Of a DNA stretch of 64,000 nucleotides, positions 14,235 through 59,607 are shown piece by piece. The DNA comes from Membranipora membranacea (taxonomy: Eukaryota > Bryozoa > Gymnolaemata > Cheilostomatida > Membraniporidae): positions 27,094,001-27,158,000 of the forward strand of contig OU612072.1 of NCBI GenBank assembly GCA_914767715.1, written 5' to 3'. The position numbers and the translations under genes are program-made. Under the pieces are notes generated by a model. It worked only from the letters and a program-made list of their open reading frames with translations. It was not told the origin of the DNA and ran no database searches. Numbering within the stretch: position 1 is the stretch's first letter; every line of letters starts with the position of its first letter.

Positions 14235-14730
14235 TAAAGACTCTGGAAGGACCACAGCAATATATAGTCTGGCAGCTAGTTCAGCAGTAATTATGCAATA
14301 TTTTCATATTTATAAAATTCAGAGCACTTCTGGGTAAAAATGATGTATAGTGTTAGAAGTTGTTCTCCCTTTTCGTCTATTAGCTATGAGGTCTCCATGG
14401 GGAGTAGTGCTGTACCAGTCCAACGAACCATAACTTCTATCTACTTGGATCAGGGAGTTTGGGACCCAAACTCCCTGCTTGGGTGAACTGTATTTATTAA
14501 TAAATAGAGTTATCTGCTATTGTAAAAAGTCTCCTGACAATGGAACTATATTCATTTTAAACTTATGTGGATACCTCATAGCTCAGAGATGAGAAGGGAA
14601 GACAATTTCTAACACTATACATAATTTTTACCCAAAAGGGCTCTGAATTTTATAAATGTGAAAATATCGCATACTTACTGCTGAACTAGCTTCCAGACTA
14701 TATATTGCTGTGAACCTTCAGGAGTCTTTA
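14235..14730. mobile_element. foldback element with long inverted arms
   Basis: Arms at about 14235-14393 and 14573-14730 are inverted copies roughly 155 bases long with scattered mismatches. Both carry AAAGACTC, CAGCAATATATAGTCTGG, TTATAAAATTCAGAGC and GTATAGTGTTAGAA. The loop of about 180 bases holds a perfect micro-palindrome (14451-14477) described separately. No ORF. No clean target duplication was seen. It could be a foldback transposon or an inverted duplication of a SINE-like repeat, because its outer end (GTCTTTAAT) resembles the tail of the neighbouring SINE. Confidence 0.7.
14444..14484. mobile_element. micro-palindrome insertion with 7-bp flanking repeat (site A)
   Basis: A perfect 13-bp stem CAGGGAGTTTGGG with a 1-nt loop (14451-14477) is flanked by CTTGGAT (14444-14450) and CTTGGGT (14478-14484), identical at six of seven positions. 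It sits in the loop of the 14.2-14.7 kb foldback element. It shares CA...TG ends and the GGAGT core with the other sites. Confidence 0.6.
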
Positions 14731-14744
14731 ATTGTGTCTGGATA

Positions 14745-15065
14745 AAATTCCCTGACTTAAAGACTTTGTTTGAAGCTGCTCTTTTGTATCACATCTTATT
14801 CTCCATATTTTATTCTATCACGTGAGCGATTTTCAGCTTTAGAATCCAAATATTGAGGAAGTTATGGCCTCTCAAACTTCCAAGGTGACGGCAATTTATC
14901 GGCAGTAAGAATCAGCCGGCAATCCCTAGGGTACGTCACAACCATCGTACTTATTACGATACACTAATAAATATGTTGATGATCAAAATGTTCAGATATG
15001 TAACGGTCTCGAACCCAGGTCTGAATGGCTTTGCAGGCAACGCCGCTAACACCGAGCTATATTGT
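14745..15065 (-). mobile_element. tRNA-derived SINE, copy A (minus strand)
   Basis: Read on the minus strand from 15065, the head contains ATAGCTCGGTGTTAGCGG (A-box-like) and a perfect-consensus B box GGGTTCGAGACC (about 15011-15000). The body passes through GGTTGTGACGTACCC (about 14945-14930) and ends in a tail reading TTTTGTATCACATCTTATTC on the plus strand near 14782. It is the inverted partner of the copy at 15085-15425. Confidence 0.75.
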
Positions 15066-15084
15066 CTACTGCCTAACCTAGTTG

Positions 15085-15425
15085 GTCCAAGTGGCGTGAT
15101 GGTAGCGTTGCTGCCTATAGGTATGGGGATCTGGGTTCGATTCCCATCCAGGTCTGAATTTCGATCATCATCCTTTCTGTGTGATAATTAGTGTATTAAC
15201 TAATAACTCATAATATGTCTATGTCCATGTCTATGGTTGTGACGTACCCCAGGGGAAACATCCGCTTATTCCCAATGCCGATTGAAGGCAATCAGCCTGT
15301 AAGTTTGAGAGGCCATAACTTCCTCAATATTTGGATTCTAAAGCTGAAAATCGCTCACATGACAGAAAAAATATGGAGAATAAGATGTGATACAAAAGAG
15401 CAGCCTCAAACAAAGTCTTTAATCT
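15085..15425 (+). mobile_element. tRNA-derived SINE, copy B (plus strand)
   Basis: The head has TGGCGTGATGGTAGCG (A-box region, about 15094) and B box GGGTTCGATTCCC (about 15134-15146). The body shares TGGTTGTGACGTACCC (about 15233) and the 3' tail GATGTGATACAAAAGAGCAG (about 15383) with copy A in inverted orientation. The two heads lie only about 20 bases apart, so the pol III promoters point away from each other. Not a functional tRNA gene. Confidence 0.75.
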
Positions 15426-15589
15426 GCACCGGAAAACAAATTGAAAATATAGAATATTTCTCCAACTCATATAACTAACTCTAAATGAACAAAAAACTGT
15501 CTGATTCAGGGATCCCACAAACAACTCATACTAAAGTTTCAAGTGTTTCAATCGCTAGGCCATACTGTTAGCCTGGGCAGGCTGCCGGG

Positions 15590-15776
15590 CTACCTACCCA
15601 GGCTACCTGCCCAGGCTACCTTCCCAGGCTACCTGCCCAGGCTACCTGCCCAGGCTACCTGCCCAGGCTACCTGCCCAGGCTACCTGCCCAGGCTACCTG
15701 CCCAGGCTACCTGCCCAGGCTACCTGTCCAGGCTACCTGCCCAGGCTACCTGTCCAGGCTACCTGCCCAGGCTACC
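15590..15776. repeat. 13-bp minisatellite, 14 full units
   Basis: Fourteen contiguous units of CTACCTGCCCAGG (15590-15771) plus a partial CTACC. Only four units differ, by one or two bases (ACC, TTC and two GTC variants). On the complementary strand the unit contains GGGCAGGTAG, close to the GGGCAGGANG core of hypervariable minisatellites. CATACTG occurs just before (about 15561) and just after the array. All three frames are open because 13 is prime to 3, so the apparent 87-codon ORF is not evidence of a gene. 15777-16283 beyond it holds nothing recognised. Confidence 0.95.
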
Positions 15777-16387
15777 ATACTGCTATTGCAGTATTTCATG
15801 TTGTAGTCTAGCCTTAGATGTTAGACTTGAAAAATAACCCCTTTCCCATCCGATATCTTTATTTATTATAGTGGCTGAAGTTTATCCTAATAAGATCCTG
15901 TTGTTTTGATGACCCACTGGTCACATGACTTATGATGACCCGACGTTTTGACCAGTAACATTCTTGTGTCAATGAATGATCAATTGAGGGGCTATGTTTT
16001 CTGTTCGGCTGTTGAAGAACATGAGCTGGAGTGATATCTGTATGATTAAGGGGACAGATTACAGATGTTGAGATAGCTGGTAGTAGCATGTAATTGTCAA
16101 CCATTTTCCCAATAAGTGGGGAAAATATAACTAGCTAGATCGTTGAAAATTATGAGTTGGCCTCTCAAACTGTGGTAAGATTGATAATAATAATTTATGA
16201 TAATGCTTTTAGGAAAAAGGATGCTGATACTGAATCAACACCCTATTTTATGGGGCTTTCAAGATAAGCCAATCTCAGCCCCTTTTTGAATGAATAAATA
16301 AGTTTATTTGGGTAATTATGACAGGAACACATTACAATTAAGGCGCTCTCTGTGAATTCAAAAAATAAAAGAACATCAGTTATTTAA

Positions 16388-16764
16388 AGGGCAACCAAGG
16401 TTTCGCAGCAATGCATTAATGGGTAGCAAATAATGTGCTGGGCAGCATCAGCTTTGTGCATTACGCGATGCAAAACTCAAAGTAGTTGCTGACTCTAAGC
16501 TGGGTAACACTTCAGTTTAGGGGAGGTTCCAAGACTTTGCTGTAATAATTATAGAGCACAGGCTAAATAATAACAGGAACAGGAAACTGCTATGCGGTAT
16601 TCTCTTTTAGCTGAGTTTGAGTACCTGATGGAAGAAATGTTTCACAAGAATTCTGGCTGAATAATCACCCGAATTATATTTTGTCTTTTTCCCCATGCAG
16701 AAGGTGCAATCTGCTATTAATCAATGGCCATCAATGAGAAGTTGTTTGAATCCTTGGTTGCCCT
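16388..16764. mobile_element. 377-bp TTAA-flanked MITE, copy 1
   Basis: Bounded by TTAA at 16384-16387 and 16765-16768, with terminal inverted repeats AGGGCAACCAAGG / CCTTGGTTGCCCT. It interrupts the C-terminal/3' part of the LINE just after the SIRVL block. TTAA target duplications are typical of piggyBac-type (and Kolobok-type) transposons. There is no coding capacity. The sequence is a close inverted copy of 17395-17771. Confidence 0.9.
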
Positions 16765-17394: not shown

Positions 17395-17771
17395 AGGGCA
17401 ACCAAGGTTTCAAACAACTTCTCATTGATGGCCATTGATTAATAGCAGATTGCACCTTCTGCATGGGGAGAAAGACAAAATATAATTCGGATGATTATTC
17501 AGCCAGAATTCTTGTGAAACATTTCTTTCATCAGGTACTCAAACTCAGCTAAAAGAGAATACCACATAGCAGTTTCCTGTTCCTGTTATTAATTAGCCTG
17601 TGCTCTATAATTATTACAGCAAAGTCTTGGAACCTCCCCTAAACTGAAGTGTTACCCAGCTTAGAGTCAGCAACTACTTTGAGTTTTGCATAGCGTAATG
17701 CACAAAGCTGATGCTGCCCAGCACATTATTTGCTACCCATTAATGCATTGCTGCGAAACCTTGGTTGCCCT
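17395..17771. mobile_element. 377-bp TTAA-flanked MITE, copy 2 (opposite orientation)
   Basis: Bounded by TTAA at 17391-17394 and 17772-17775, with the same terminal repeats and exactly the same length as copy 1 but inverted. It interrupts the same LINE inside the reverse transcriptase, between the YADD motif and the thumb (after VGLPNL). The two copies differ by few substitutions, for example GCATTACGCGATGC versus GCATAGCGTAATGC, so both insertions are recent relative to the LINE's decay. Confidence 0.92.
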
Positions 17772-20039
17772 TTAAGATTCGGCAAGCCAACAAGAGCCAT
17801 ATCATCGGCATACTTAAAAGCCTTGATATCAGGATGGGTAGATTTTAAAAAGTCAGTATAAATAGAAAATAAAACTGGGGATAGAACACAACCTTGTGGA
17901 CATCCTATATCACAGTTTAGAATATCAGATTTTTCTTCACCAATACGCACATATTGCTGCCTGTCTACTAAAAATGACATTATCACAGATCGAAGGTAGT
18001 GTGGCACATCAAAAACTTTTAGATTATCTAGTAAAATATTGGCACAATAGTGTTGAATGCTGATGTAAAATCCACAAATAAAATTCTGGCATAAGTAGAT
18101 GGGTTTTCCAAGTGCAACCTCAAAAAATAATCCAATCCTATACAGGCGTCTTTTATGCCACGATTCTTTTTATAAGCAAACTGAAGGCTATCTAAATCAA
18201 CGTAATTTAAAAGTTTGTTCTTGATAATTCTCTCAAAACATATCATTATAACTGATGTAAGGGCAATAGGTCTGTAGCCGTTTAGGGTTTGGCTTTTTCG
18301 GTAATAGAGAAATAGCTGATAATTTCCAGAGTTTGGGTAATGTACCACTTGAAAGACAGATATTAAGAATTTTACAAAATACTGACAGTTCATAAAAGCA
18401 TCGCTTCAAAACTTTGGATAAAATACCATCTGGTCCTGCTGCTTTTCCAGGCTTGCACTGGTGTAGTTGAGGTCGCACCTCCTCTACCGCTATCTCGCTA
18501 CCGTCATTTGATTTATTAGGAGTGTCAGGATCAGGTGGGTCAGGTGTTACTGCTGCTAGCTGTGAGTCGTTGTATCTAGTATAGAACTCATTTAGGCTGG
18601 TACAGAGTTCCTTCTGCTGTGTGGCATCCATCAGGTCTAAATTGGTGCTGCTAGGCTTGGTTTGGTTAGATATGGATTTGATGGCTTTCTTTGATGTTGG
18701 AGGACATTTTTGATAGCATTTTGTCATTGTATTGTATTTTTGCATCTTTTATTTGGTTTTTCTCTTTATTATTGTTTTTATGAGCCGCTTGCTTTTCGTG
18801 TAGGAGCCTATTGATTTTGGCAGTCATCCATGCGCATTGGTTGGTGTTGGAGTAAAACTGCTTTGTTGTTGAGTTGGAGGCTACCACAGGGTTGATGTAA
18901 TTGCCTCCACAGTTTGATGAACATTTGTTGTCATAAATATCTCCCAATTTGTGGTATCAAATGCAGCTTTGCATTTTTCTATTGTCTCTGAGTCGATCAC
19001 CTGCTTAAGAAATTTCTTCTTCTTTTGATTTTTATAAGCTGGGGTGTAAATGGGTACCATCTGCATAAAGCAGTGATCAATTTTCCCACAGGTGGAAGCT
19101 TGTAGGATTTGAATGCATATTTTATATTGGAGTAGAACAGGTCAAGTTTTCTATTGTCTCTGGTGTTGAAAGACACATACTGCTGTAGCTTGATGGATAA
19201 CCTTGCTTCATTGAAATCCCGACTATTATTATGGCACAATCGGGTTGGGTTTCGATACACTTTTCTGCAAAATTCTCAAGCAGTTCGACGGCAGCGGGGG
19301 TGTCCGAATCAGGTGGTACATATACTGCCAGGAGATTGATGATGTTTAGTTCCCTTGGCAGAGAATGTGGTAGACATTTGAGGTGCAACAATTCTAAGTC
19401 TTTAGAGAGGTAGCATCGTTGGATGGATGTGTTGGTACACCATTCTCTCCTAATTAACCACTGCACCCTCCACCACGTGATTTGTTGCAGGTAGAAGGGT
19501 CTCTGTCTGTTTGGTAGATGTCGAAACCGTCAAACGGGACATTGTTATCAGTGATGGAGCTGTGTAGCCAGGTTTCTGTGATTGCAATTGCACTGGCATT
19601 GCGGTAAGCTTGGTTATATTCTAAAAGGGCATTAAGTTAATCAACTTTATTTTTGATTGACCTGACATTTGCTAAATTAATAGCAGGTAAAGCTAGTTTG
19701 CGATGGTTGTGAACCGTTCTGTTCCTTCCGCTTCGTTTACAGCTTTGACGATGAATTAATCTATGAGGTAAATGTGCAGCAATCTGTTTAACAGTGCTTG
19801 CGCACTTATGGTCTCTGAATTTTAGCAAATCATCTCTACTATATGTAAGAGTTATCTTTCCTCTGTACTACTAAATTTGCCAAATCACTTCCTGTATCAA
19901 CTATAATAGCTGCTTAAGAGTTTATATGTGTATCTATCTGCTGTCAGTACTGTTCTGCTGCTGGAAAGTCCTCTTTCAGGTGACTTAAGTACTTAATTCA
20001 CTGATTTGTGGAAAATCCACTGGTTAAGAGCTGTATAAA

Positions 20040-20241: not shown

Positions 20242-23200
20242 ATGACAAATTTTTTCATGGTAAACCTCATCTTTCTATTAAAGGCACACTCTCTCTATAA
20301 CTCAATATCTACCAGAAAACCTACAGAGGAACAATGGAGGATCAAAGCGTTTGAGTTACAGAAGATGTACTGGGGAGAAAACTCTAACATTGACTATGAG
20401 ACAATGAGAAATCTGACTAATGATCTAAAATATAAACTAAATTCTATCAGAGACAGATTCAGAGAAGAAAATGAAACTGCTGACGATTTAGTGAGTAAAC
20501 TCCACAGTGATAGCGCTGACTCAAGCGTTAAAAATCAATATTTTGAAGTTATGAAGAAAATATCACTGGAATGCTCTGAGGCTATGGCTGATTTTGCAGG
20601 TAGGATCATTAATGAGAGTATGAATGTGTTGAATGTTCCACCCCCTTGTGGATTTGAAACTGTGGCAATAGGATCTATTGCTCGAGGGGAGGCAACTCCT
20701 TACTCTGATCTGGAGTACCTATTTCTTATCACCAATGATTCCCAAGAGGCAGTCAAGTATTTCCAAACCCTGGCCATCACTTCTTACTTTATAATGGGGA
20801 ATCTCGGGGAAACAAAGCTGTCCTACATGGCAATCAAGGAGCTGTATAGTTGGTTTGATGACAAAGCAAAAAATGGCTTCAAGATTGATGGTTTGGCCGA
20901 GGGAGCGGGTAATATTCCAACAGGAAATAGTTCTAAAAATCACAATCACTTCATTGTCAATCCGAAACAGTTAGCTGATAGATACAAGAAAGTCCTAGAA
21001 AATCCAGATCCAAAAGAAGCATTGAGAGGTGATATCACTTCCATGCTGACTTACACCAAGTCATTATACTCGTATCAGAACGAGCAGAGTAATCTGTTAC
21101 AAGAGTTCAGGGATCTCATAAAACCGATGGTTAATAACAAGGCAAGGACAGAGTCCAATATGAATATGCTACAAACAGATGCAGATAAATTCAACTTTGT
21201 CCCAAATGATGATTTGATGCAGAAAGGTTTTAATGCGAATGTGAAAAGGGAACTCTATAGATTCCCCTCCATATTACTATTAGATATCTGCATTTTTAGT
21301 GACTGTACCGCACAATCATCTTGGGCATCATTAGAAAATCTTTCTAAAAGTGGAAAAATTTCTGACGATCTGTTTACTTCCATGAAATTCCTACTCGCTG
21401 CCGCCACATATATAAGGCTATCCACTTATCTTTACCATGACTCACATGATGACAGGATAGCCCTCACACAAAAGGTTACACAAACCCAACAAGACGCAGC
21501 TAAAATCAATCAGAGATCACAGCGATGGTTTTTACCATGTGAGTTATTCTCAGTTATGTGCACATTAATGACTCCGCTAAAAGAATATTTAGCCCATGAG
21601 AAAAAAAAGGATTTCACCAAATACTGTATGAAGCCAGATACTTTGTGGTCACAAGTAACAGCATTGTATTACAGTGGTAACCAATCACAAGCTCTATCTA
21701 AACTCAAACAGAGATGTGAAGGATTATGTGATAATCCTGTAGAGTCAGCTCTACAGTTAGCCCCAGTATTACCACACAGTACATACCATACACTGATTAT
21801 AATAGCAGAGACTCTGCACTGGTGTAGTGAGTACAGAGCAGCACTACAGTTATATAAATACATGACAGATAATAACATCAGTGATCAGACGCCGAATATA
21901 GCAGACTGTCATACCAAGCTAGGTGATAATAATACAGCTATAGACATACTGAACAGTATTACTGATAAATCATCTCATGTGTACTACTCATTAGGTCATG
22001 CATATTACTCAGTAGGGAAGTTTAAGGAGGCTGAACACAATTATATACAAGCATTACAGATAAAGTATAATAATACATCAGCTGAAGTCCTTACAGACTA
22101 TTATGGTAATCCGCTGTCTGCTACAGAAAATGATAGACAACACAAGATAGATTTGTTAGGTGCTGAATCACCAGAACATAAGCTGAGTATGATAACTAAT
22201 ATAACACCTGGTATCATCGCAAGCATAACATCATTAGGTATTGTATACAATGGTATGCAGCAGTATAGTACGGCTGAGGCTTATTATAATAAGTCACTAC
22301 AGTTTATATATGATCTGTATGGTGAAGGTGCTGCTGTACAGGTTAATGCTGTATTACTGTGTAATATGGGTAACAATTACCGTGACATGGAGCAGTACAG
22401 TAGAGCAGAAGAATGTTTCATACAGGCCTTATCTATACATAGAAAATTATCACAAGGTGAGGACAGTGTGGGTATAGCTAACACACTGAATAATATGGTT
22501 ATCAATTACAGTCACATGAAGCAGTACAGTAGAGCAGTAGAATGTTACACACAGGCCTTATCTATGTATAGAGAATTATCACAAGGTGAGGACAGTGTGG
22601 GTATAGCTGACACACTGTGTACTATGGGTAACAATTACGGTCACATGGAGCAGTACAGTAGAGCAGTAGAATGTTACACACAGGCCTTATCTATATATAG
22701 AGAATTATCACAAGGTGGGGACAGTGTGAATATAGCTAAAACACTGTATAATATGGGTATCAATTACAGTCACATGAAGCAGTACAGTAGAGCAGTAGAA
22801 TGTTACACACAGGCCTTATCTATATATAGAGAATTTTCACAAGGTGAGGACAGTGTGTATATAGCTAGAATACTATATAATATGGGTATCAATTACCGTC
22901 ACATGAAGCAGTACAGCAGAGCAGTAGAATATTACACACAGGCCTTATCTATATATAGAGAATTATCACAAGGTGAGGACAGTGTGGATATAGCTAACAC
23001 ACTGAATAATATGGGTAACAATTACGGTGACATGAACCAGTACAGTAGAGCAGTAGAATGTTACACACAGGCCTTATCTATATATAGAGAATTATCACAA
23101 GGTGAGGACAGTGTGATTGTAGCTAACACACTGTGTAATATGGGTAGCTTATACAGTGAGACCGGGGATAATAGTAAGGCTAGAGATGTGCTGAGACAAG

Positions 23201-23286
23201 CTCTAAATATTTACTCCAGACTAGATCCCGGGAATTCTCGTATTCAGAAGATACAAAGTTATCTTACACAGACAAAATCAGACTAA
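20242..23286 (+). CDS. nucleotidyltransferase-TPR protein (GlnD/DUF294-like N-terminus, 1,014 aa)
   Basis: An uninterrupted ORF in an otherwise intron-rich region. Residues about 130-330 resemble the uridylyltransferase GlnD / DUF294 type of nucleotidyltransferase: G144-S145-x-A-R-G-E-x-x-P-Y-S-D156-L-E158 supplies the G-S loop and the metal-binding D-x-E pair, and a later block (NPKQLADRYKKVLENPDPKE) matches the region after the palm in these proteins. A helical stretch follows, then tetratricopeptide repeats from about residue 560 to 1005. Six are nearly identical 42-residue units (708-959) of the kinesin-light-chain/nephrocystin-3 type and the last (960-1001) is diverged. The family occurs in sponges, cnidarians and other invertebrates; substrate and role are unknown to me. 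The first Met lies in a hydrophobic AT-rich leader that could be intronic (a possible acceptor CTATTAAAG ends near 20282), so the true start may be downstream or in an upstream exon. No signal peptide is confidently called. Confidence 0.9.
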   Translation: MTNFFMVNLIFLLKAHSLYNSISTRKPTEEQWRIKAFELQKMYWGENSNIDYETMRNLTNDLKYKLNSIRDRFREENETADDLVSKLHSDSADSSVKNQYFEVMKKISLECSEAMADFAGRIINESMNVLNVPPPCGFETVAIGSIARGEATPYSDLEYLFLITNDSQEAVKYFQTLAITSYFIMGNLGETKLSYMAIKELYSWFDDKAKNGFKIDGLAEGAGNIPTGNSSKNHNHFIVNPKQLADRYKKVLENPDPKEALRGDITSMLTYTKSLYSYQNEQSNLLQEFRDLIKPMVNNKARTESNMNMLQTDADKFNFVPNDDLMQKGFNANVKRELYRFPSILLLDICIFSDCTAQSSWASLENLSKSGKISDDLFTSMKFLLAAATYIRLSTYLYHDSHDDRIALTQKVTQTQQDAAKINQRSQRWFLPCELFSVMCTLMTPLKEYLAHEKKKDFTKYCMKPDTLWSQVTALYYSGNQSQALSKLKQRCEGLCDNPVESALQLAPVLPHSTYHTLIIIAETLHWCSEYRAALQLYKYMTDNNISDQTPNIADCHTKLGDNNTAIDILNSITDKSSHVYYSLGHAYYSVGKFKEAEHNYIQALQIKYNNTSAEVLTDYYGNPLSATENDRQHKIDLLGAESPEHKLSMITNITPGIIASITSLGIVYNGMQQYSTAEAYYNKSLQFIYDLYGEGAAVQVNAVLLCNMGNNYRDMEQYSRAEECFIQALSIHRKLSQGEDSVGIANTLNNMVINYSHMKQYSRAVECYTQALSMYRELSQGEDSVGIADTLCTMGNNYGHMEQYSRAVECYTQALSIYRELSQGGDSVNIAKTLYNMGINYSHMKQYSRAVECYTQALSIYREFSQGEDSVYIARILYNMGINYRHMKQYSRAVEYYTQALSIYRELSQGEDSVDIANTLNNMGNNYGDMNQYSRAVECYTQALSIYRELSQGEDSVIVANTLCNMGSLYSETGDNSKARDVLRQALNIYSRLDPGNSRIQKIQSYLTQTKSD
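22363..23118 (+). repeat. six tandem 126-bp TPR-coding units
   Basis: Units start at 22363, 22489, 22615, 22741, 22867 and 22993, each 126 bp, and differ at few positions. The peptide block QYSRAVECYTQALSIYREL recurs in most copies. A seventh, clearly diverged unit starts at 23119. Near-identity at synonymous positions means recent duplication or gene conversion. Short-read assemblies may mis-count these units. Confidence 0.95.
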
Positions 23287-24946: not shown

Positions 24947-26745
24947 TCATTTGAAAGGCATTAAAGTCAAAAGACGTGAAAGCTTTTTGAAACTGTTTAG
25001 CCATAGAAGCAATGAACTAAGTTCATTGATAGAAGTCTCTTGCTCTTTACTGTATTTACAGTTTCTCCAGTCTACAGATTCTGGTTTGTTTAGCATTTCC
25101 TCATCTGCCATCACTTCTCTCCCAAACTGTATCGGGAAGTTCATCTGTATTCTGTGAAACAGCTTATCACCGTTTAGCAGCTCAGCATAGAAATAAGTCT
25201 TACCTATAATATGTAAGCGATGAAGATTGACTGCAGTACACATACTGTGAACTAGGCAGGCTCAGTTGTAAACATGCGAAAGTAACAAACGCTTAGAGAA
25301 GTTGTGCTCTCCGAACTATATGATTACTGCATTTGTCAAGAGTGGCTTAGTGGAGATGGTCTTGGAGTCTACATCTTTATCGTGCATCCACTTACTTAAC
25401 TGATCTCTACACATTAATATCTATCTATAGAATAAATAATAATCTGTACAGACCTGTAGGGACTATCTCTTTGAGTTCAGATCTATCAGGAATTTCCACG
25501 AGGTCTATCCTCAGTAGCTCAGCATTAGACATAAATACACTCATACACTGATCTGCCTTGTCTTTAGGTATGGCTACTGTCTGTACTTGTGTGTGAGAAG
25601 ACTTAAAGTTCCTCTCAAAGAATACTACAGCTTTACCTTGTGACTTAAAAAACCTCTTCAGTGCCGCCTTGTACTTTGCGATTTCCTATAAAAGAAATTA
25701 GGAGCAGAACTGATAAATACATGTCTAACTGGCAGCAGCAAAGAGCATAAATGCCTTATTTGATTTTCCAATTATGACTTTTAAATAAAATCAGAAGTAG
25801 TTTGATTGCCGGTAGTTTTGGTATCGGACATGATTTATGAACTTGGTGTCAGCACAATATGTTCTCTCAAGGGGATAACTCTCTACGTATTGTATAGTTT
25901 TGACTGGTCCAATAACTGCAGAACTTGGCGTAAACAGGGAGTTATATCCAAGATCCAGATTCATTGTGATATAATAATAATTGGATTGTCTTCTAAAAAA
26001 CCAGGAGAGCACAACTCATGCAAAATTTATTATTAAAAGTTGCTGCCTCACCTCTAGAACTTCATCAGAGCAGGTAACAAGTGACTGGAAATGTCCGATA
26101 GGTAATATAAGTACATGCTGATCACTGAGGGGACCTTTAGCCATAGCTACATATACATGAGACCGACACAAACAACAAGATGCTTCTCAACCTCCGGACT
26201 GCCCAAACAGAACCAGCATGGACCTTTAGGCTTCGGAGGCTCTGAGGTTCTCTTAGCATCTGGGCAATCACTGTGTGGTCGACCTGCAAAGTAAATTGAA
26301 GAAATGAGAGAAAAATGAATCATGACACCAGGTCAGAAAGTTTAAAGTAACATTAGTCTTAGACTAAGCGTTTAATCAAAGGGATCGCCGTGAAGTAATT
26401 ATAAAAATGTACATTTCCGTGTCATGTATATCAATTATTGTACTTTTATCAGCTACCAAAACTAAGACACTTATTGACAATGTTACAGTAAGATTATCAT
26501 GTCGTTTATTTTCCAGCTGCTGATGATTGTCCGTAGAAGAATTCATTCCTATGAGGAGCAGCTCCAGATTCTCTCATCTCCATCACCTCCTGATGAGTCA
26601 TCTTATACAGACATTCTGTTGTGTCTGCTGCCTGTTTATGAAGCTCTTCTCTATCTATATACTTCATCGGTGCCATATTAAATGCATAGAGGTATTTCTG
26701 TTTCTCTTTGTTGCCTACAGTTGCTATGGCAACAAACCAGGACAT
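24947..26745 (-). CDS. CWF19L1: CWF19-like protein 1 homologue, C-terminal exons, frame disrupted
   Basis: Four blocks on the minus strand. (1) About 26745-26506: [20 protein letters not shown], matching the CWF19L1 segment before the linker. (2) 26283-26052: [18 protein letters not shown], the start of the CwfJ C-terminal domain 1 with its C-x-x-C. (3) 25685-25454: [20 protein letters not shown] and [20 protein letters not shown]. (4) 25203 onward: [20 protein letters not shown] and [11 protein letters not shown], CwfJ domain 2. Phases agree at the 25685/26052 and 25203/25454 junctions. CWF19L1 proteins act in late pre-mRNA splicing (lariat debranching context). Lesions: a one-base loss near 26150 (V-G then the [10 protein letters not shown] frame), a stop soon after [11 protein letters not shown] (about 26508) with no clear donor, and a 26-bp insertion at the C-terminus (25003-25035). 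The N-terminal half is not found within 27-31 kb. It is either a pseudogene or a gene with assembly indels. Confidence 0.85.
25003..25035. mobile_element. micro-palindrome insertion inside a CWF19L1 exon (site B)
   Basis: ATAGAAG (25003-25009), a perfect palindrome CAATGAACTAAGTTCATTG (25010-25028, 9-bp arms, 1-nt loop), then ATAGAAG again (25029-25035). Removing one 7-mer plus the palindrome (26 bp) restores the conserved CWF19L1 C-terminal frame, with [15 protein letters not shown] following SKEQETS. The insertion is therefore secondary and frameshifts the last exon, giving a novel 27-residue tail. Confidence 0.85.
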
Positions 26746-28739: not shown

Positions 28740-28781
28740 GATACATCAAGGAGTTGTAGGTCTACAACTCCTTGGATACAT
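28740..28781. mobile_element. micro-palindrome insertion with exact 7-bp repeat (site C)
   Basis: GATACAT (28740-28746), then a perfect hairpin with 13-bp arms CAAGGAGTTGTAG and loop GT (28747-28774), then GATACAT (28775-28781). It has the same architecture as sites A, B and D-F. No gene is disrupted. Confidence 0.85.
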
Positions 28782-35716: not shown

Positions 35717-36050
35717 CTAGCATCGTTGTTCAAAACGCCCCGAAATACGAATGAATCGGAGCAAATCTGAAACTGTGATGCACGTTGGCTTAGCTGCCCC
35801 CTTTAGGACGGATTGACCAAAGGTTCGCTGCCTCGTCTGTTTGTAGAATTGGCATGAGGTTTCAAAGTGAAGGGCTGTATCCTTGTCTTGACCACATTTT
35901 GGACAGTCTATTTCATTTGTTAGCTTGAGTTTTTGTAGGTGTACCTTGAATGGCCCGTGACCAGTTACAACTGATATGAGGTTACTGATCTCTGAGCGTT
36001 CAAAGCAGAGGAGACCAGTTTCAAATCTTAGAATCAGTTCATTAATGAAT
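35717..36050 (-). pseudogene. LINE ORF2 C-terminal zinc-binding fragment
   Basis: The minus-strand frame reads SVVTGHGPFKVHLQKLKL, then CPKCGQDKDTALHFETSCQF. This is the TGHg...HL...C-x-x-C...H-x(4)-C block that follows RNase H in I/jockey-type LINEs. It reads into AT/GC triplet repeats upstream (36066-36350). It is probably the missing end of the RNase H fragment at 38.6-39.0 kb or of another copy. Confidence 0.7.
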
Positions 36051-36065
36051 GATTTTGTATGATTA

Positions 36066-36350
36066 CCATGTTTACGGTACCCGGCCATAATGCCATGGTC
36101 AAAATGCCATTGGGACAAAATGCCAGTGACATAATGCCATTGCCATAATGCCGTTGCCATAATGCCATGGCCATAATACCATAGGTGATAACACCACTGC
36201 ACATTATGCCAATGCCAAAATACCAGTTGTACAAAACGCCAGTTGTGTCAAAATACCAGTGGATAAAACGCCGGAGTGGACATAATACCATTTGGGACAA
36301 CATACCATATCCCAAAATACCAATGCCATAATGCCAAAATATGTTACCAA
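36066..36350. repeat. degenerate CCATAATGCC repeat array
   Basis: More than fifteen imperfect copies of a 9-18 base motif around CCATAATGCCA, with variants AAAATGCCA and AATACCAGT. Because the array largely lacks stops on the minus strand, it extends the LINE reading frame artificially. Confidence 0.8.
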
Positions 36351-38556: not shown

Positions 38557-39033
38557 TCAAGACTTGGCATTCGAAAAAAAGTTGAAGAATTGAACAGTTG
38601 TGAGAGCATTTGAGACAGCAGTAATTTCAGCTTGGAATACTGTTACTGTGTTTCCAAGGCATTGAAACTCTTCTATATCTCGTACAAAAGGAGGATTATT
38701 ATTACTAGTAATGAATACACCTGATCCAACGCCGAGATCATTTCGTGAACCATCTGTATACACATTGATGTCATAATCAGTTTTAACATCCCGTTCTATC
38801 CACCGCTCTCGGTCTGGTACCTCAAATTTCACATGAGTCATACCAAACACCAGTGTGCGGGGGATAGAGTCGGAAGGCATCAGGGCTGGTGAGCAAATGG
38901 TAGTTAGTATGTTAAAAATTGTGTTGTGACCATATTTATGATTTGAGTCCCACTGATTGCTTGCCATAAGCCTGTAACAGGTTCTCATAGCATGTGATTG
39001 AATTATAATATGGAGTGGGGTGAGATCTAGCAA
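38557..39033 (-). pseudogene. LINE RNase H domain fragment
   Basis: The frame begins with DLTPLHIIIQSHAMRTCYRL, the linker found before RNase H in I/jockey-type LINEs, and continues into NVYTDGSRNDLGVGSGVFI, the first catalytic Asp block (T-D-G-S), and TVTVFQAEITAVSNAL, carrying the catalytic Glu. The third catalytic block (S-D-S-x-A) appears degraded (FFSNAKS, stop). The C-terminal zinc block may be the one at 35.7-36.05 kb. Confidence 0.75.
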
Positions 39034-41380
39034 ATATTCAAGGGCTGCAGTAGGAGTTGTCTTAAAGAGTTTGAAAATGTTAATTCTGCCAGCCGGTTGA
39101 GTCGAGAGATGTATTTTCAGGTGTATAATCTACCAACAAACACATTGGGATGGAGAAAAAAATTCTAGTTCCTCAAACCTTCAAACCAGCGATGTAATTC
39201 TTGCAGTGTCATATGAAACAAGGTTATTATTCTGGGATATGTGGTAACACCTTAGTAATAGTATAGAAATTATTGATACGATGAAAAATTAGACCATGAC
39301 ATGATATAACAGTGGTCTGAATGATGCACCGCAAGAAATACACTGCAAACGATTGGTCTGGCATATCTAACCTAAGTGTATACATTATACAATGCTGAAA
39401 CCCCAGAAGTTCCTGGCCTAAATGACCAGAAAATTTAGAAAAAAAACAATATAACATTATTCAAGATTGGATGGTCAGCTCCAGACCCTAATCGACTCAA
39501 ATGTATGATATTGCATGACAAAAAGGCCACCCATCTCATACTTTGAGATACATAAATTTATCTCTAAACTGGGATTTTCTCATTCTGACAGTGTCTTAAC
39601 AAAAGAACAATCCTATAATGACAATGCTATCCCTGATTCCCCAGCTGTGGGTGCAGCGGTAACACTGTTTCTGGGACAGCTGAGAGCGGAGTTGCAAAAC
39701 GGCTGATTATACTACCAGGTTGTTGATATCAATTTGTGACAAATTTACATTTTCAGGTCATGATGTAACAAGGATTTTCTTTGTCTAAAGCGGTGAGCAA
39801 TTATTCTCATGAATGACCAGACAGATTCTCAAATTTTTCAGTTACATTGATTAATGGTTTATTACATAACAGAGCTGTAACATGCTGTAACAGTCATAAG
39901 GGACAACAGTAAATTGAAGAACAGTACCATAAAAATCCTAATAATTATTTGTAATCTTTGCCCTTAAAAGACAATTTACAATGTGCACACAGGAAAATAC
40001 ATTCGTTAATTTGATCGAATTCTAACTATAGGCAGTCGTTGAATAGGGGAACTAAGAAGTCGTCAAAATATGATCAATTCAGGGTCATAAACTGATCAAA
40101 AGGATCTAGTATTTGTATCAATGTAACTGTATGAATCAGATCTATGATTTCCAGTAGCCTACCCTCGCAGCAATCCCAAGAAATGAAACTATCAAGCTCT
40201 TTTACTCTGGTCCATGGTGATACACTGAACATCATTTATTGCTCGAGCGGGGCTGTTCATAATCTGCACTCATTAATTTTAATATCAGGTTTTTGTGGGG
40301 TTTGGTTGCAGTCCTGAAGTTGACCCGAAACTGTACTAGTATAGAGACGCTAGGCTAGATAGCATACACATCGAGGGAGTCGGCAACGAACATTATATTG
40401 GTTGTTGTACCAAAATTATCGCCCTCTTACATATGTTGCATAACTCTTCCTATTTAGGATAATTGGTATGGATGTAATAATAATCTCTACACCTTGTGCG
40501 GTGACACTGTGTTTGTAATAATGCTGCAGGCTACATCGTAAGGTTAGATTGGAGCGCAGCGTAAAACAGAAATATAAGTTGATACAAAATGGAGGCTCGT
40601 CGATTAGCTGGTTGGCTGTACGAGTCTTGACAAGAAATTGGTGCATAAAATGATGACAAACAAGTCTATACTTAGAATGAGTGCGGCTAATAGTAATCAA
40701 GATTTCCATGTAGTGAAATGTAGGACTGTGGTTTACAAAAAATGTCAGCATCAACATTTCTAATGGGTAAAAAACTGCTAATAGGTAATTGCGACAGCAT
40801 TGCTCAATCTGAAAACTTAGCTGCATGAATCAGATCTATGATTAAAGTAGCTTGTAATTTTTTCCATAAATATTAATTTTGACTTAGTTAATATACAATA
40901 GATGATGGCCAAAGTGTACAAGGATTTCAATAGTTGTTATTTTGGCCGATCAACAATCTGAAAACCACTAAAACTACTACAACCATTACAAAATAAAGTA
41001 CACCTATGCTGTAGTATGTTGGATAGGCCCTGGGGGCCGATGTCAGGGAGACATGCCCCAATGCTCCTATGAGAGTTGTGTAACAAAAGGCCTTTTGTTT
41101 GGTGAACAAAGGAGTACAATGGCAGGCAAAGTGTGCCTGTCTGAATGCATGTTGGATTCGTGTGATTGCATGCTGGGGCGCGTGTATGCTAGGCTCAGCT
41201 CTCTACTTTTGCTACACTCATTTGTGGGTATACACAATTCACCCGCTGCTACGATATGTAGGAACCACTGGTAAAGGGTATTTCACAACTGTACTTTATT
41301 TTGTAATGACAACTAAGTATTTATCATTATATATGCATGTGTAAAAAAGGTGAATACTGTTTATTTTGTGTTTTGTTGGT
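39034..41380. other. intergenic, one short dispersed repeat
   Basis: ATGAATCAGATCTATGATT occurs at about 40132 and about 40825 in direct orientation, each followed within 10 bases by AGTAGC, so a diverged repeat is present twice. The 136-codon minus-strand frame at 40416-40826 has no motif or splice support and is not called. Confidence 0.4.
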
Positions 41381-41389: not shown

Positions 41390-41638
41390 ATCAAGCTGTT
41401 TGATTTGTTGTTGGAGCGTGTACATTTATTATGTGACCATTGTGTCAATGACTTATAAATGACTGTATATCAACTGTACATCAACTGTACATCAACTATA
41501 TATCAACTATATATCAACTATATATCAACTATATATCAACTGATTATAATTGTGATGGCATGCCTTATTTATACTATCGGCAGCATGCTAAATGAGCATG
41601 TGACTTAATTAGTGGTCACTGCATATGAGGACACAACA
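41390..41638 (-). mobile_element. probable Ty3/gypsy 3' LTR
   Basis: On the minus strand a polypurine tract (AAAGAGGGA, 41647-41639) is followed at once by TGTTGTGTCC, the TG start expected of an LTR. A TATA-like GTATAAATAAGGC (about 41574-41562) and AATAAATGT (about 41431) follow in promoter/poly(A) order. It lies directly downstream of integrase coding at 41831. The LTR's far boundary is not defined. It contains the 11-bp tandem array at 41467-41543. Confidence 0.55.
41467..41543. repeat. 11-bp tandem repeat, 7 units
   Basis: Seven contiguous units of ATATCAACTAT or close variants (ATATCAACTGT, ACATCAACTGT), lying inside the putative LTR between its TATA-like and poly(A)-like motifs. Confidence 0.95.
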
Positions 41639-50158: not shown

Positions 50159-53100
50159 ATGAAGCCTGCATCCTTCAACAATTTGAGACTTCTACATCAC
50201 AACGTAAGGTCATTATATAAAAAGATGTTTTATTATGAAAGCCTCAATCTTTATAAGTCAACCGACATTTTTTCTGTTTCTGAAACATGGCTCACTCCTG
50301 ATATTCCAGATAGTCTTGTTGACTTGCCTGGATTCTCAATAGCTAGATGTGACAGAAAATCTACAACAAAAACCCGGGGAGGTGGTGCTGCGCTCTTTGT
50401 AAAATCTTCATGTAAATTCTGTATAATAAGTCAATTGAGTGTTAAACTGTCCAAATTTTGTGACTCGGTTTGGATAAAAATACCTTCCACAAACAACCAA
50501 CACGGCTACATCATCGGATCAATTTATCTTCCCCCTGATGCTAATAAAACGAAATTCATTAAAATGATGAGCTCAATTCTACATCAAAACCAATATGTTG
50601 GCCATAAATTTATACTACTAGAAGATTTTAATATTAATTGGAATTCCTCATCAAACGAAAAACACATTTAGAGCAGAGCTTCATGTCTGCAGGGCTATTA
50701 CAGCAAGTTAATGGGATTTCATATATAGCCATTTAGGGAGAGAAAGCTTATTAGACCACAACTATGTGAACAGTGACATTAGCTTTAATAGTTGCAAGAT
50801 CCTGACATGCGATAGATCAATTTCTGATCACTATGCCACATACTTAGTAATTAATCAACATCATGCTATAAAACAGCCACGCAAACTAATTAAAACCAGA
50901 AATATGCACAGCATTAATCATGAGGAATTTTATAATGACTGTTCGAAACTTCCACTACTGCAAACAGCAACTGACATGAACAAATCATTGCATCACCGCA
51001 TGGAAAATAGTGAAAACTTTATCTCTAACCTGATTGACAAGCATGCTCCAGTTAAAACAAAAAGAGTGTGAGGTGTTAAAAACCAGTGGCTTTTCCCTGA
51101 TATTCAGCATCTCATTAATTTAAGAGACAAATTTTACAAGAGGGTATTCAAGGATATACCTAATCCAGCTACAGCGCAAGTCAAACAGTTCAACAAGTTT
51201 TGAAACTTTGTTACAAATAAAATTAGGAATGCTAAGAAAGACTTTATAAATGACTCATTATCTAAAGATGAAACAAGTTTTTTCACCTGCCTGAAATCAC
51301 TGACAGGAAAGAAGAAATCCTCTGATCAAATCGAGAAAATTAGCTATCAAAACTCTACCTACACCTCAAACTCTGACAAGGCAAATGCCCTTAATAGATA
51401 TTTCACCACGGTCGCTGGACAATCGGTTTTTATTCCTAAGATCGATCAACAACCTGACCTTTTCCATGGTCCAAGTTTCAATTTCACATATGTTGAGAGC
51501 GAAACAATCTACAAACTGATAAAGTCCCTCAAACCAAATAAACGTGGTGGCTTGACCATGTTTCCAGCTTCCCTGTACCAAACTGTTGCAGACCTATTAG
51601 CTCTTCCCATAGCCCTGATCATTAACGAATGCTACAAGAAATCAATATTTCCCGACTGCCTAAAAACAGCCCTGGTCACCCCACTCTTTAAGAAGGGCGA
51701 TAAAACAGACCCTTGCAATTACAGACCAATTTCCAGTCTGCCAATCATATCAAAGGTGTTTGAGCTAGATATGAAAAATCAAATTATGACGTTTATCGAA
51801 ACACATGGAATACTCTCTGATCGACAATTCGGTTTTCGTAAGCACCATTCCAGTGAACAGTAACTACTTTCTCTTTTGCAAAATTGGAGAACAACGCTAG
51901 ACAACCCTCAACCGAATTTCATATAGGTGCACTCTCTTTGGACGTACGTAAAGTGTAAAGATACTCATTAGCTTTACAAAAACAAACTAAAATTCATTAT
52001 GTAACAAACCCATGTATTATATATTCAAATTAAAAGTTCTTTTGTTTCACCAGCTTAAGCTGGAGACTCGTTTCAACTCCAAACAAGTTGTCACTGCTCT
52101 CATCTGCAGGATTAGGTTCAGTCCAATTTCAGGGGACAATAGAGTAATTTACTCTTCAAACAGGGGATCCAGGGTGCAGTATTGTGTCGAGGAGTGTATG
52201 TGTTGCAGCTTCTGGCCACCTCCCAACATCTTTAGGGGGCGTTGGCTGTCCGTGATTGGTCTGGGGGGATTTGGGCCCGCCCTGGTCTTTGTGTAGGTGT
52301 GTTCCCTGTATATCTGGCAGAACTTATCCTGGTTCAGTGTAATTTTACATGTGAAAGAAGGCAGCTCACTTTATTATGAACTCAGATCAGTTAGATCAAG
52401 ATATTATATACAAAAGCAGTTTAGAGGAAAAAGGCAAAAGGTATGAATATTAACCTTATCATTTTAATTGCAACATGCATTCCTTATGCAAGGATCAATT
52501 ATTTTATATATACCTTGAATTGTGTAAAGGCTTAATTTGACACCTTATTATTGTAAATTTTGGAAATAACACTTTATTTTAAAAGCTGTAAAGTAACACT
52601 ATACAGGTAACTTTTTGAGAACCTGTGTAATGCTTTTATAAATAGTCATTGTTTGTGTTAATCTTTTTAGATTTCACGGTGTGAATCTCGGTAAAACTCG
52701 ACAATAAATGGTATAAATTGTACGACAAAAGTCCGAGTTCCATCAGTTAAAATCCCAAGTCACAAAATCCACTAAACTGAAAGCCTAACGATAGGGAATC
52801 GTTAAATAAAGCATTTGACACTATAAATCATGGACAACACATCCACACTCTGAAGCGACTAAATTTCGCAGAGTCAACAACAAAATTATTTACATCCTAT
52901 CTTTCACATCGAACCCAAATCATGAAAGTTGATCATGATCAGTCCAGTGCACTACCGATTACATGTGGAGTATCCCAAGGAAGTGTCTAGGTTCAATCTT
53001 ATTCAATCTTGCACAAAACTGCATTCGCTTACGCTGATGACACCGTTATTTCCTGCACAGCAACAGATATCCCTACCTTAATGGATAAATCTGAGTCATT

Positions 53101-55607: not shown

Positions 55608-57129
55608 CTGAGTTTCATGCACCATATATCATTACCCAACCAGCAACATTATTGTATAATTAACCCTGCCTGCCAAATAAACTACATTCATTATTGCTAT
55701 TGTATTGTTATAGTATAATCCTTTACAGTTCTAGCCCAGTTCTAGTCAATATTATATAATTGGATTGACATTGTATTCAATGAGTTTGTATTTAGATGAC
55801 CAGGCAAGTTAGCTGCTACAATGAAAGCATTACATTCGAATTTTCCTCCTCACAATTTTTGTAAGCACAGAAAACTCTTAGTATTGAGTATGATGAGCCG
55901 ACAAAATACCTATGTTCAACTCATCTGTGTTGTACTGTAAGCCTACCCTAAGCTATATCTTGTGCAATCTAAGAATGTAGGCAGCAACTGCATAAATAGA
56001 ATACATCAGCTAAATTATGCTAGCAGAATTATCACAAAACTTTGCTACTAATAAAAAAGTACAACATCGCTCACCAGTTGAGCGAGGATCTACTTTGTAT
56101 TAATCGCCCTACATGCCTAAGTGGAGAAGAGTGATATGCGAATGAGGCCATATTCTCCACAGAACTACCGAAAATATGCTGACTGATGCTAGAAAACATA
56201 CTTGGTGTCAAAGCATGCAGTATTAATACTGATTATTGGCATAGTCTTAATCTACGCTCCTTGGGATTTTTGAGATTGAATGGCTCTGAGCAAGGATTTT
56301 GCTCTGAATGCTATGGTATGTGGGTAGAGAGAGGCAAAGGTAAATCTATTGTAAACCTGGTATACATTCATTACCTGTCTACAAAGGAGCTCTTGATGTT
56401 AAACTTTATCATTCCCAGCCATCTCAGTTATATGGTGTGCAGGAAGCAATTATGGCATTTTTCTCTCTCACTCTTGGATGGTAGTTCCCTAGCAGGTGTT
56501 GGCACTAGTACAGATAGTATTGAAATGTTAGGCTAGTGACAAGACAACAACGTTTACAGTAATACATTTTAAGCTGTCAGCTTGTGTGCCACAAGCAGGG
56601 AGGTTAGCCTTTCACAGGCATAATGACTTAATTACCTCAATATTCCTTGTCAAAATTTTTAATTATCGAATTAATTGTCGCTGGTAGTTAATCCTACACA
56701 CACATTCCATTGCACTTGTAACAAGTCATCATGACACACTTGTGGAATTAGAGAGACAGGATGTCATCGTAAGCTGACCTAACTTCCTGTCTTTTGCTGC
56801 CGATAATGAATGCGATGAGTTTTTAATTTTGCGAATGTACATGTTTACAATGATGGTTGTTTTGGTGAAAGTACAATCATGATCATTCTTTGACAGAAGA
56901 GTGAGGGGGCGGGAAGTTTAAGCCTTTTATGAAAAATACTAGATGGTTGACCAAATTCCATTTGTATATTTTCATCGAATTATTTCACCAAACTCTGCTT
57001 CCAAGCTCATCATAGTACAGAGTAACTATGCCAAAAATGAGATTGCTTTGCAAAAAAATCTCTTGCGCCCTTATTATCCGGTATTTGCAACCATGTTTCA
57101 TTGATTTTCCTCTGCTACTTGGTCAACTA

Positions 57130-57181: not shown

Positions 57182-57813
57182 ATAATCTGCTGCTAGCTCA
57201 TTACGATAATCTATGTGTTTACCCAAAGGGTTAACCATTTTTAAATCTACTGGTACCTTTTAAAGTTCTGTGCAGGTTGCCCATGAATGCCAATGTCAAC
57301 AAAATTTACATTCTGACTGGCTTATCTTGATTATGACTTCATGGGTAAACAACTTGGATAACAACAATACATCCAATTATGCTTGAACTCAGCTGCTTGG
57401 CTAAGATGTTGATGTCAAGTAAAAGGTAAACAATTGGCAAATAGACACTGAGAATCTTGTTCAATTCAATAAGCTAATCCCATTAAAGTGATCAGGCAGA
57501 TTGAACTGTACATTGTAGCCATTGAATGCATGCATTGAAAAGTTCGGTGTGTTGAAAGTTCTTTCAACCTAAAGGTTTATCAATGAATATCAAGACTGAT
57601 TTCACCAACCTACTCCAGATTAATACAATTTTCACCTAAAAAGGTTTAATTTTTTTAACATTTCATTTCAAATCAATTGCATGTAATTGAGTGATGTGGC
57701 TAGTATCGGGCAAAACAACATCGATGCATCAGTTCCATGTGGTCTACCGAATACATTTCCTAGAAGTTTCGACCATCACGACAGGATTTCCACAATGCAG
57801 CTATAGTCTGGAG

Positions 57814-57849
57814 TTCCAATCAAGGAGTACTTTTACTCCTTGTTCCAAT
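57814..57849. mobile_element. micro-palindrome insertion with exact 7-bp repeat (site D)
   Basis: TTCCAAT (57814-57820), hairpin with arms CAAGGAGTA / TACTCCTTG and loop CTTT (57821-57842), then TTCCAAT (57843-57849). Same end sequence CAAGGAGT as sites C and E. Confidence 0.85.
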
Positions 57850-58136
57850 CATTTCAACAAATTCCTGCCAAAGGAATACCCACACTGATATTTATTCTGT
57901 TATATATGAGACCGGTAGCTTAGACAGGCGGCTGGGTTGCCAGATTAGGGGCTTGTAGGGCCATTACATCAGTTAAGATTTAGAGCGGTAAATAATTGCC
58001 TGGACAGCCTTGTAGCAGATAATCTTTCAAAGCTATCAGCTTAATATTATCGCCTGCATTGATATATTTAGAATTTACAGTGACCATCAGACATTCCGTA
58101 CAAACGAGTTCTATTGTGTCATTTAACTATAGGTCT

Positions 58137-58182
58137 GTTTGATCAAGAAGTAACAGGGGAAGCTGTTACTCCTTGGTTTGAT
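58137..58182. mobile_element. micro-palindrome insertion with exact 7-bp repeat (site E)
   Basis: GTTTGAT (58137-58143), hairpin with 13-bp arms CAAGAAGTAACAG / CTGTTACTCCTTG (one mismatch) and loop GGGAAG (58144-58175), then GTTTGAT (58176-58182). It adjoins the right copy of the 56.2/58.3 kb inverted repeat. Confidence 0.85.
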
Positions 58183-58319
58183 TTACCCTTGCTTCTCTCT
58201 ACCCACATTCCATAAAATTCAGAGCTTGCGCTCCATGCCCAGAACATCTTCAGCCAACAAACAGCTAATGAAAGCCATCCACGCCAAAAAATCCCAAGGA
58301 GCGTAGATTAACCCTTAGT

Positions 58320-59572
58320 GTGTCATCTACATAATCCCTCTGGTTAGCTATTCTTGTTGAAATTCCTAAAAATGATAAGGGGTTGTAAAAATTGATATAT
58401 CTTAAAATCTAGAGGGTGTAGAAGGAAAGTTTATATAAACTTCTTCTAAACAAGATTTCTGATCTATCTATATAACTTTTAACCACCCAGCAATAACAGA
58501 AATGATTGATGAGGTATTGAAACACACAAAAAAGTGTACAACTAGACTTAATTTGTATAATATATCTGAACCACTGAACTCAATCCTGGAACAGCAGCTC
58601 ACTCATAGCCTTATAAACAGTAAACACTCAATTTAGGAATACTTACTTGATTTTATGAACTCCTCAATCCTCTAATAATTTAAGTTTATAGATGTCTATG
58701 TGATTTGCTATGTGAAATGCTATGTGATTGGCTGTCCCTAGTAGAGGGTGCCATCTTTACTGTATGACCACGTGACAGTCACCTGACTAAAACCATTACA
58801 ACAAGATGCATTCTTCCGGATATAATGCAGTCTCTAATAAAATATTCATTGATTTATGGATTTGTTTCATAGTGTTTTATTGTTTTATATTATCAAGACC
58901 GGCATAAATAAAAGTTGTTATGTTCGAAATAACAACCAAATAAAAGAAAAAGACACTAGTTTATACAAATTGCTGCTCACAGAAAATTGATTTTTTTAAT
59001 AATCAAACATTGCGCAAACTCCAAAAAGCTACTAGGGACTGAGCTCGATGTCAAATGAAAATTGTGAGAATGTCTATTGGAAAATACAGCTCCCTGATTG
59101 GAGAATGGTGAGTTGAAAATGCTATTCTAAGAATAGTACAATTCAATGATCTGAACACAAATACTCTCACACCGGTCTTACAGAGTCATAATTTGTACCA
59201 CTGGACAGGGAATTTTGTTTAGATGAGAAATAAAAAAATAACTAACTCTTTACGAGCAATGATACTACCATGGTGATGTTTATAGCAAGGAGGGTTCAAT
59301 GTTAGCAAAGTTTATGCAGGCAGTGCCATCGTACTATAATCCTCTATCAATTGGTAATCTGCTTTGTACTAATTTCTAAAAATTATTAAACTGCCTTGTA
59401 CTAACTACTAACCCTAAAGTAGTCTTGGACCTCACTAACCAAAAAATGTGTACTAGCAGCACCGATTCCCACCTAACTGCAACCCTCTATGAGCCATAAG
59501 AAGCTTAACACAGGGATAAACCGACTTGTAAATTTGCCTGCCATTGCTAAACACAATGCCTGAGAAACCATT
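58320..59572. other. intergenic, nothing recognised
   Basis: No exon or RNA gene is supported. AT-rich sequence without recognised repeats. Confidence 0.4.
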
Positions 59573-59607
59573 CTGTGATCAATGAAGAAGGAGTTCATTG
59601 CTGTGAT
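59573..59607. mobile_element. micro-palindrome insertion with exact 7-bp repeat (site F)
   Basis: CTGTGAT (59573-59579), a 21-nt imperfect palindrome with arms CAATGAA / TTCATTG around GAAGGAG (59580-59600), then CTGTGAT (59601-59607). Its ends match the CAATGAA...TTCATTG ends of site B. Confidence 0.8.

Follow-up and report, generated by a model that had tools for sequence, protein, structure and literature searches.

P-superfamily transposons and their probable excision footprints

In Drosophila, the second-strand cut of the P transposase falls 17 bp into the terminal repeat (PMC7776569), which leaves the donor ends with 17-nt tails (PMC2895639). In the excision junctions of Table 1 in PMC2895639, obtained in a Rad51-mutant (spn-A) assay, the order is target copy, CATGATGAAATAAC..GTTATTTCATCATG, target copy, so that a target duplication flanks a CA..TG palindrome made of two 17-nt tails and closed by microhomology, blunt or insert joins. 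In a recount of that table, 44 of 66 isolates retain the two target copies as well as CA..TG, and their spacers are 7-44 bp long. P duplicates 8 bp at the motif GTCCGGAC and the hAT element hobo duplicates 8 bp with a preference for NTNNNNAN, while 1360 duplicates 7 bp at GTTNAAC (all in PMC3276498) and Galileo 7 bp at GTANTAC (PMC4168063). In this report a 64,000-nucleotide stretch of the bryozoan Membranipora membranacea (contig OU612072.1, positions 27,094,001 to 27,158,000; hereafter the window) is described, in which short palindromes lie between 7-bp direct repeats. These loci are very probably excision footprints of P-superfamily cut-and-paste transposons with 7-bp target duplications.

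The window loci are like the Drosophila P junctions in their whole architecture, but the duplication is 7 bp instead of 8 bp, and they are standing scars of several arm families instead of products of an assay. With 1360 and Galileo they share the 7-bp duplication and a palindromic target motif, nTnnnAn (PMC3276498, PMC4168063). The zebrafish element Pdre2/THAP9, a member of the P superfamily that does not come from an insect, has CA..TG ends too (CATACCTGTCAAC), but its terminal repeats are 13 bp and its duplications 8 bp (PMC10983969), as against 29 bp and 7 bp here. The initial annotation of the window was on target in crediting P elements with 7-8-bp duplications; its remark that no named family of this kind was known does not stand, given the 7-bp duplications of the P superfamily (1360, Galileo) and the similar Drosophila P junctions in PMC2895639.

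Probable footprints in the window

Six loci had been reported in the initial annotation, and all six lie where it placed them with the 7-mers it gave, five pairs exact and one matching at 6/7. Their palindromes measure 19-32 bp and run from CA to TG as claimed; the architecture stood, with corrections at 58144-58175, which has one arm mismatch, and at 59580-59600, which consists of 7-bp perfect arms around a 7-nt centre. Two good additions, at 63-90, where the terminal core fits at both ends, and 59930-59963, as well as five weak candidates complete the set (Table 1). In the eight scars the palindromes span 14-32 bp and fit a P-type footprint, namely terminal-repeat ends of no more than about 17 nt per side between two target duplications; this length limit was read from the genome set of the 28740 family. 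Four of the eight scars are clustered inside 2,116 bp (simulated chance 0.0086).

Table 1. Excision footprints and candidate footprints in the window, in window coordinates
Feature	Position	Left 7-mer / palindrome / right 7-mer	Flanks and remarks
Footprint	63..90	ATAAAAT / CAGGGAGGTCCTTG (14 bp) / ATAAAAT	exact, two-letter 7-mer; absent from the initial six
Footprint	14444..14484	CTTGGAT / 27 bp, arms CAGGGAGTTTGGG / CTTGGGT	6/7
Footprint	25003..25035	ATAGAAG / CAATGAACTAAGTTCATTG / ATAGAAG	exact
Footprint	28740..28781	GATACAT / CAAGGAGTTGTAGGTCTACAACTCCTTG / GATACAT	exact
Footprint	57814..57849	TTCCAAT / CAAGGAGTACTTTTACTCCTTG / TTCCAAT	exact
Footprint	58137..58182	GTTTGAT / 32 bp, arms CAAGRAGTAACAG / GTTTGAT	exact
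Footprint	59573..59607	CTGTGAT / CAATGAAGAAGGAGTTCATTG / CTGTGAT	exact; trimming asymmetric
Footprint	59930..59963	ATACCTG / CATTGAACTAAAGTTCACTG / ATGCCTG	6/7; absent from the initial six
Weak candidate, decayed footprint	2255..2286	CAATGAACCTCGTCATTG	4/7
Weak candidate, decayed footprint	6202..6233	CAATGAGGAAGTTCATTG	alike only after a 1-nt shift
Weak candidate, decayed footprint	6255..6291	CAAGGAGTAACTCATTGAGTTTG	6/7
Weak candidate, decayed footprint	8470..8504	CAATGAACTCCCAGTATATTG	6/7
Weak candidate	11550..11598	CAATGAACCCAG...AAAATG, 35 bp	6/7

The initial claim that the loci are not random was borne out, since they lie far above chance in simulations. An open scan, which demanded no terminal bases (exact flank repeat of at least 3 letters, perfect arms of at least 6, at most 70 bp), found four loci with 7-bp flanks, all of them CA..TG, versus none in six Markov-2 simulations; summed, these simulations gave 8 matches at 5 bp, 2 at 6 bp and none at 7 and 8 bp. 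At other flank lengths the window yielded four matches at 4 bp, 13 at 5 bp (every one in a single tandem repeat, 41475-41520), one at 6 bp (36291, adjoining another tandem repeat), one at 9 bp (the locus 57821 offset by one base) and none at 8, 10 or 11 bp. A relaxed scan, in which CA..TG was demanded and one mismatch was allowed in the flank and one in an 8-bp arm, returned eight matches with 7-bp flanks and none with 5-, 6-, 8- or 9-bp flanks in the window, while 60 simulations at 7 bp gave 13 matches in sum and 2 at most. Furthermore, when a terminal core picked post hoc from the loci, CA[AGT][GT]GA, was required at both ends, 7/19 pairs spaced 10-36 bp and 1/809 pairs spaced 37-2000 bp were flanked by 7-bp repeats that differ at one base or none; 300 simulations of this test produced 3 in sum and never more than 1.

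Among nine near-perfect palindromes of the window (arms of at least 9, loop of at most 10), three have exact 7-bp flanks and one has flanks matching at 6/7; the flanks of the remaining five differ at 2-7 of the 7 bases, the lowest value belonging to the AT-rich site 23373. One of these five is a perfect 55-bp palindrome (27+1+27) at 63269-63323, which runs from CATTCTTCACG to CGTGAAGAATG and lacks a 7-bp flank repeat. The probability that the loci are chance palindromes or a low-complexity artefact is practically nil. One relaxed match, at 36144, is indeed a tandem-repeat artefact, and the exact 5- and 6-bp flank matches fall in or beside tandem repeats, but the simulations of all three scans contradict this explanation, as do the genome search described below, with 0 control matches, and seven scars of other sequence in loci retrieved for a different purpose.

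Within the eight window 7-mers, T at position 2 (T2) and A at position 6 (A6) each occur in 7/8, and symmetrised T2/A6 reaches 14/16, the top of 12 position/base tests. Elsewhere in the genome, among the matches listed, 43 distinct loci have flanks that differ at one base or none; T2 occurs in 31 of them and A6 in 35. A 7-bp duplication with a T2/A6 motif is also found in the 1360/Galileo group. The terminal sequences of 1360 and Galileo probably differ from those found here. The motif was noticed after the Galileo consensus was known (PMC2775673, PMC4168063) and before the motifs of 1360, P and hobo were known (PMC3276498).

Copies across the genome

The genome comprises 339,339,785 bp in 18 contigs, in which the window is C8:27094001-27158000. 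The arms of the 28740 locus, CAAGGAGTTGTAG..CTACAACTCCTTG, occur at most 30 nt apart at 67 places, whereas the reversed-pattern control gave 0. The two-armed set analysed consists of 50 listed of these 67 places, with 44 distinct flanks. The 7-bp flanks agree exactly in 37/50 and with one mismatch in 12/50, with no repeat in 1/50, and 0/50 have flanks that match exactly at a length of 4-6 or 8-10 bp. The 16-mer CAAGGAGTTGTAGACC has 59 and 63 occurrences on the two strands genome-wide, with 0 for its control.

Footprints of hAT transposons would be another source of such loci. A hAT C-terminal dimerisation domain (PF05699) is present in the window open reading frame 4871-5524, and hAT ends often begin CA as well; hAT excision is not known to leave 16-17 nt of terminal repeat, and hobo has another transposase. 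The target preference of hobo, NTNNNNAN, resembles T2/A6, but hobo duplicates 8 bp (PMC3276498), while exact repeats here are 7 bp in 37/50 and 8 bp in 0/50. With a parent of the 28740 family that matched TNP-like domains and no hAT domain, a hAT origin is highly improbable.

Scars were also recognised where one searched end is present. Among the first 100 places listed, a sample of 18 single-ended places (L077-L094, each with 5 kb; the other single-ended places were left out) contained 16 scars, one unexcised element end (L086) and one place assigned to neither class (L088). Several of these scars are asymmetric, such as ATTCAAA / CAAGGAGTTGTAGACCTTG / ATTCAAA. L077 and L082 have the same 7-mer and part of their flanks in common, so they may be copies of a single scar. 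At L077:100 and L082:4851 a scar of the CAAGGAG family sits within CAATGAACTCCCTCC sequence that resembles a terminus from a further P-type family, and AATGAAC is duplicated there.

Outside the two-armed family, 54 retrieved loci (201,968 bases, overlaps included) gave 15 scars from 55 core pairs 10-36 bp apart, as well as one flank repeat among 22 core pairs 37-60 bp apart. The searched sequence stands on one side in eight of the 15 scars and is absent in seven, and these seven unascertained scars include the CAGGGAGTTTGGG type (as at 14444) and the CAATGAAC type (as at 25003). The same seven both-ended scars were obtained in a wider set of 59 loci with about 201,507 unique positions, together with nine one-ended matches whose excess over chance is not clear. 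The arm family of 14444 recurs at L063:2744 and L078:1224, and that of 25003 at L001:854, L004:2652 and L053:787. The window (7 in 64 kb) is richer in scars than the retrieved sample, which is itself non-random. A pattern scan of viral contigs gave 0 matches and is uninformative for this genome.

The parent element

A parent of the 28740 arm family was found at C2:32192050-32202747. This insertion measures 10,698 bp, and its 29-bp terminal repeats, CAAGGAGTTGTAGACCAGGAGGAGAAACA, are identical at 28/29 positions between the ends and are bounded by exact GTTTGAG on both sides. The element agrees with the P superfamily in this respect, for which target duplications of 7 or 8 bp and CA..TG ends in terminal inverted repeats are expected. 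The element matched the TNP-like RNase H domain PF21787 with E 1.6e-20 (3.6e-19 in a related C5 copy), above the curated cut-off, and the TNP-like GTP-binding domain PF21788 with E 2.1e-6 and 28.5 bits for a cut-off of 24.8; the C5 copy, with E 2.9e-5 and 24.9 bits, is barely over it. We take TNP in the Pfam names to be the P transposase, going by those names and the P literature. The transposase frames are broken by stops in both copies, and the transposase piece had no match when searched against PDB sequences.

The initial annotation had proposed, as one option, that a larger element with CAAGGAGT ends had left remnants when it excised imprecisely, and had called for a long element with the same ends, 7-bp duplications and a transposase. 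For the 28740 family this element exists on C2, with its transposase in broken pieces, and one empty site was found elsewhere. We infer P-superfamily parents for the other arm families of the window, with CAGGGAGTTTGGG, CAAGGAGTAACAG and CAATGAACTCC ends, too. Another superfamily with 6-7-bp duplications, such as Dada, would agree in duplication length alone; it is scarcely credible here, given the TNP-like RNase H and GTP-binding domains of the parent and the varied targets with a T2/A6 motif.

Two shorter candidates, C5:29289913-29292632 and C2:32194159-32198148, were rejected as parents for want of matching duplications; similarity between the two copies continues past those sites, and the longer C2 element proved to be the parent. 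A window candidate at 11726-14004 gave nothing in a Pfam scan, and the 809 long core pairs of the window, with their single match, made no parent evident.

Probable cut position and junction repair

Retained lengths were read from 44 distinct scars (88 ends) among the matches listed, where 13 nt is a floor imposed by the pattern. There were 26 ends of 13 nt, 6 of 14, 5 of 15, 47 of 16, 3 of 17 and a single one of 19, which is ambiguous through overlap. Scar ends stop at about 16-17 nt although the terminal repeat is 29 bp, a limit much like the 17-nt stagger of Drosophila P, and because of this limit the cut is placed 16 nt inside the repeat, or 17 nt if many parents had T at position 17 (T17). 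The two ends are joined by a 1-nt overlap in 20 of the 44, by a 2-nt overlap in one, bluntly in 6 and with an insert in 17. Altogether 21 junction sequences were counted, the commonest of which (28 bp, identical to that at 28740) is found in 19 loci. Some inserts repeat GTTGTAGA units of the tail, as judged by eye, and the 19-bp scars are consistent with the terminal CC of the tail pairing to an inner GG; polymerase-theta-like repair of the tails may be inferred.

These junctions bear on the other option of the initial annotation, ultra-short mobile elements of 14-32 bp that consist of terminal repeats only and are moved in trans by a transposase. Target duplication with inverted repeats is the architecture of an inserted element, a junction common to 19/44 distinct loci is expected of a mobile unit, and scars exceed parent ends in the L077-L094 sample. 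But joining at a 1-nt overlap also produces the 28-bp form, some forms are asymmetric (CAAGGAGTTGTAGACCTTG is one), and no single centre is common to all loci: the centres of the 28740 type vary like repair junctions, with overlaps, blunt joins and inserts, and the loci carry ends of different families. Drosophila P, moreover, does not move with less than 138 and 216 bp at its two ends (PMC1562414). Such micro-elements are very unlikely.

For excision footprints, the following mechanism is proposed. Upon insertion, the transposase would duplicate 7 bp of the target. Upon excision, the two strands would be cut at different places, one of them at the element end and the second some 16-17 nt further in, within the terminal repeat. 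Each broken chromosome end would thereby keep a 3' tail that comprises the element's outermost 16-17 nt. End joining would then unite the tails by means of short microhomology, with trimming or with short inserts; several inserts look as if they had been copied from the tails in a polymerase-theta-like manner. The product would be a 7-mer, a CA-to-TG palindrome that measures at most about 34 bp, or more where there is an insert, and the same 7-mer, while arms differing between loci would stem from different element families with the common terminal core CA(A/G/T)(G/T)GA.

Empty sites

The joined flanks of 70 scar entries, some loci being entered twice, were compared with the DNA examined; nearly all spanning matches are the scar itself or its copies, and one is informative. 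Inside the C2 parent, a double scar (L075:1764-1835) reads GCCACAC, 32-bp scar, GCCACAC, 19-bp scar, GCCACAC, while at this site GCCACAC stands once in the C5 copy, ahead of matching downstream sequence, save one extra ATTCTTG unit. Since the C5 copy has GCCACAC once, the 7-mer there is most simply a duplication, and with two different scars between its three copies this target was probably hit twice. A single copy of the duplication, as expected of an empty site, was thus seen at one paralogous site outside the window and at none of the seven window loci tested.

An inverted duplication, 56247-56346 / 58180-58311, has homology that starts within the right 7-mer of the 58137 scar and for that reason was undecisive as an empty site. 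A 498-bp inverted-repeat element (14234-14731) carries the 14444 scar in its loop and neighbours another such element at 14757-15422; both are of the miniature inverted-repeat transposable element type with TTAAAGAC-like ends. No empty site was obtained for the element around 14444.

Evidence against P-type excision

Several observations weigh against footprints of P-superfamily elements. Regarding the scars, L042 is the sole locus among the 50 listed without a 7-bp repeat. In the PMC2895639 table, 22/66 isolates lost a target copy or CA..TG, and scars of that kind are missed here; retained lengths below 13 are likewise invisible to the two-armed pattern, though asymmetric scars show them. Regarding the cut, the base after the full 16-mer in scars of at least 33 bp (n=26) is T in 19, C in 4 and A in 3, whereas the parent ends found carry A at position 17; the cut may be at 17 rather than 16, with parents from a T17 subfamily that was not found.

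Regarding the parent, one was found for a single arm family of the window, the 28740 type. No parent element and no P transposase were found in the window, where the Pfam search covered part of the six frames, and no THAP domain was found in three coding-strand frames of L075/L076 and four open reading frames of L109, all broken copies. Lastly, the sole empty site is one paralogue pair, which a deletion in the C5 copy could also explain, and for the seven window scars tested (58144 was left out) no empty site appeared in the DNA compared.

Other features of the window

A 1014-aa open reading frame at 20242-23286 encodes TPR repeats and contains about six 129-bp tandem repeats with 91% matches, a degree of likeness that suggests recent repeat expansion. 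Matches to reverse transcriptase, RNase H and zf-RVT, from clear to weak, are located at 17726-18169 (clear), 51204-51863, 38557-39129 and 35717-36247; these four fragments are probably retrotransposon remains.

Implications

The scar type is already known, while its abundance here is unusual; a search of titles and abstract openings found no report of natural genome-wide P footprints. It is conceivable, though rather doubtful, that the genome holds thousands of scars, left by several P families, but few intact parents, with excision largely uncoupled from re-insertion (for instance by runaway or host-harnessed excision) and the scars forming a genome-wide natural record of end joining. The figure of thousands was not counted but extrapolated from 7 unascertained scars in about 201.5 kb, a sample that is not random.

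Excision scars have mostly been studied singly in laboratory assays, while here many are present in one genome with exact duplications and readable junctions. An assembly can in this way reveal where an uncharacterised P-like transposase cuts and how its host tends to repair the breaks, and the rule of a 7-mer, a CA(A/G/T)(G/T)GA palindrome of at most about 34 bp and the same 7-mer lets annotators count past P insertions whose bodies are gone. In conclusion, the genome sequence records both the movement of elements and the cellular mending of the breaks.

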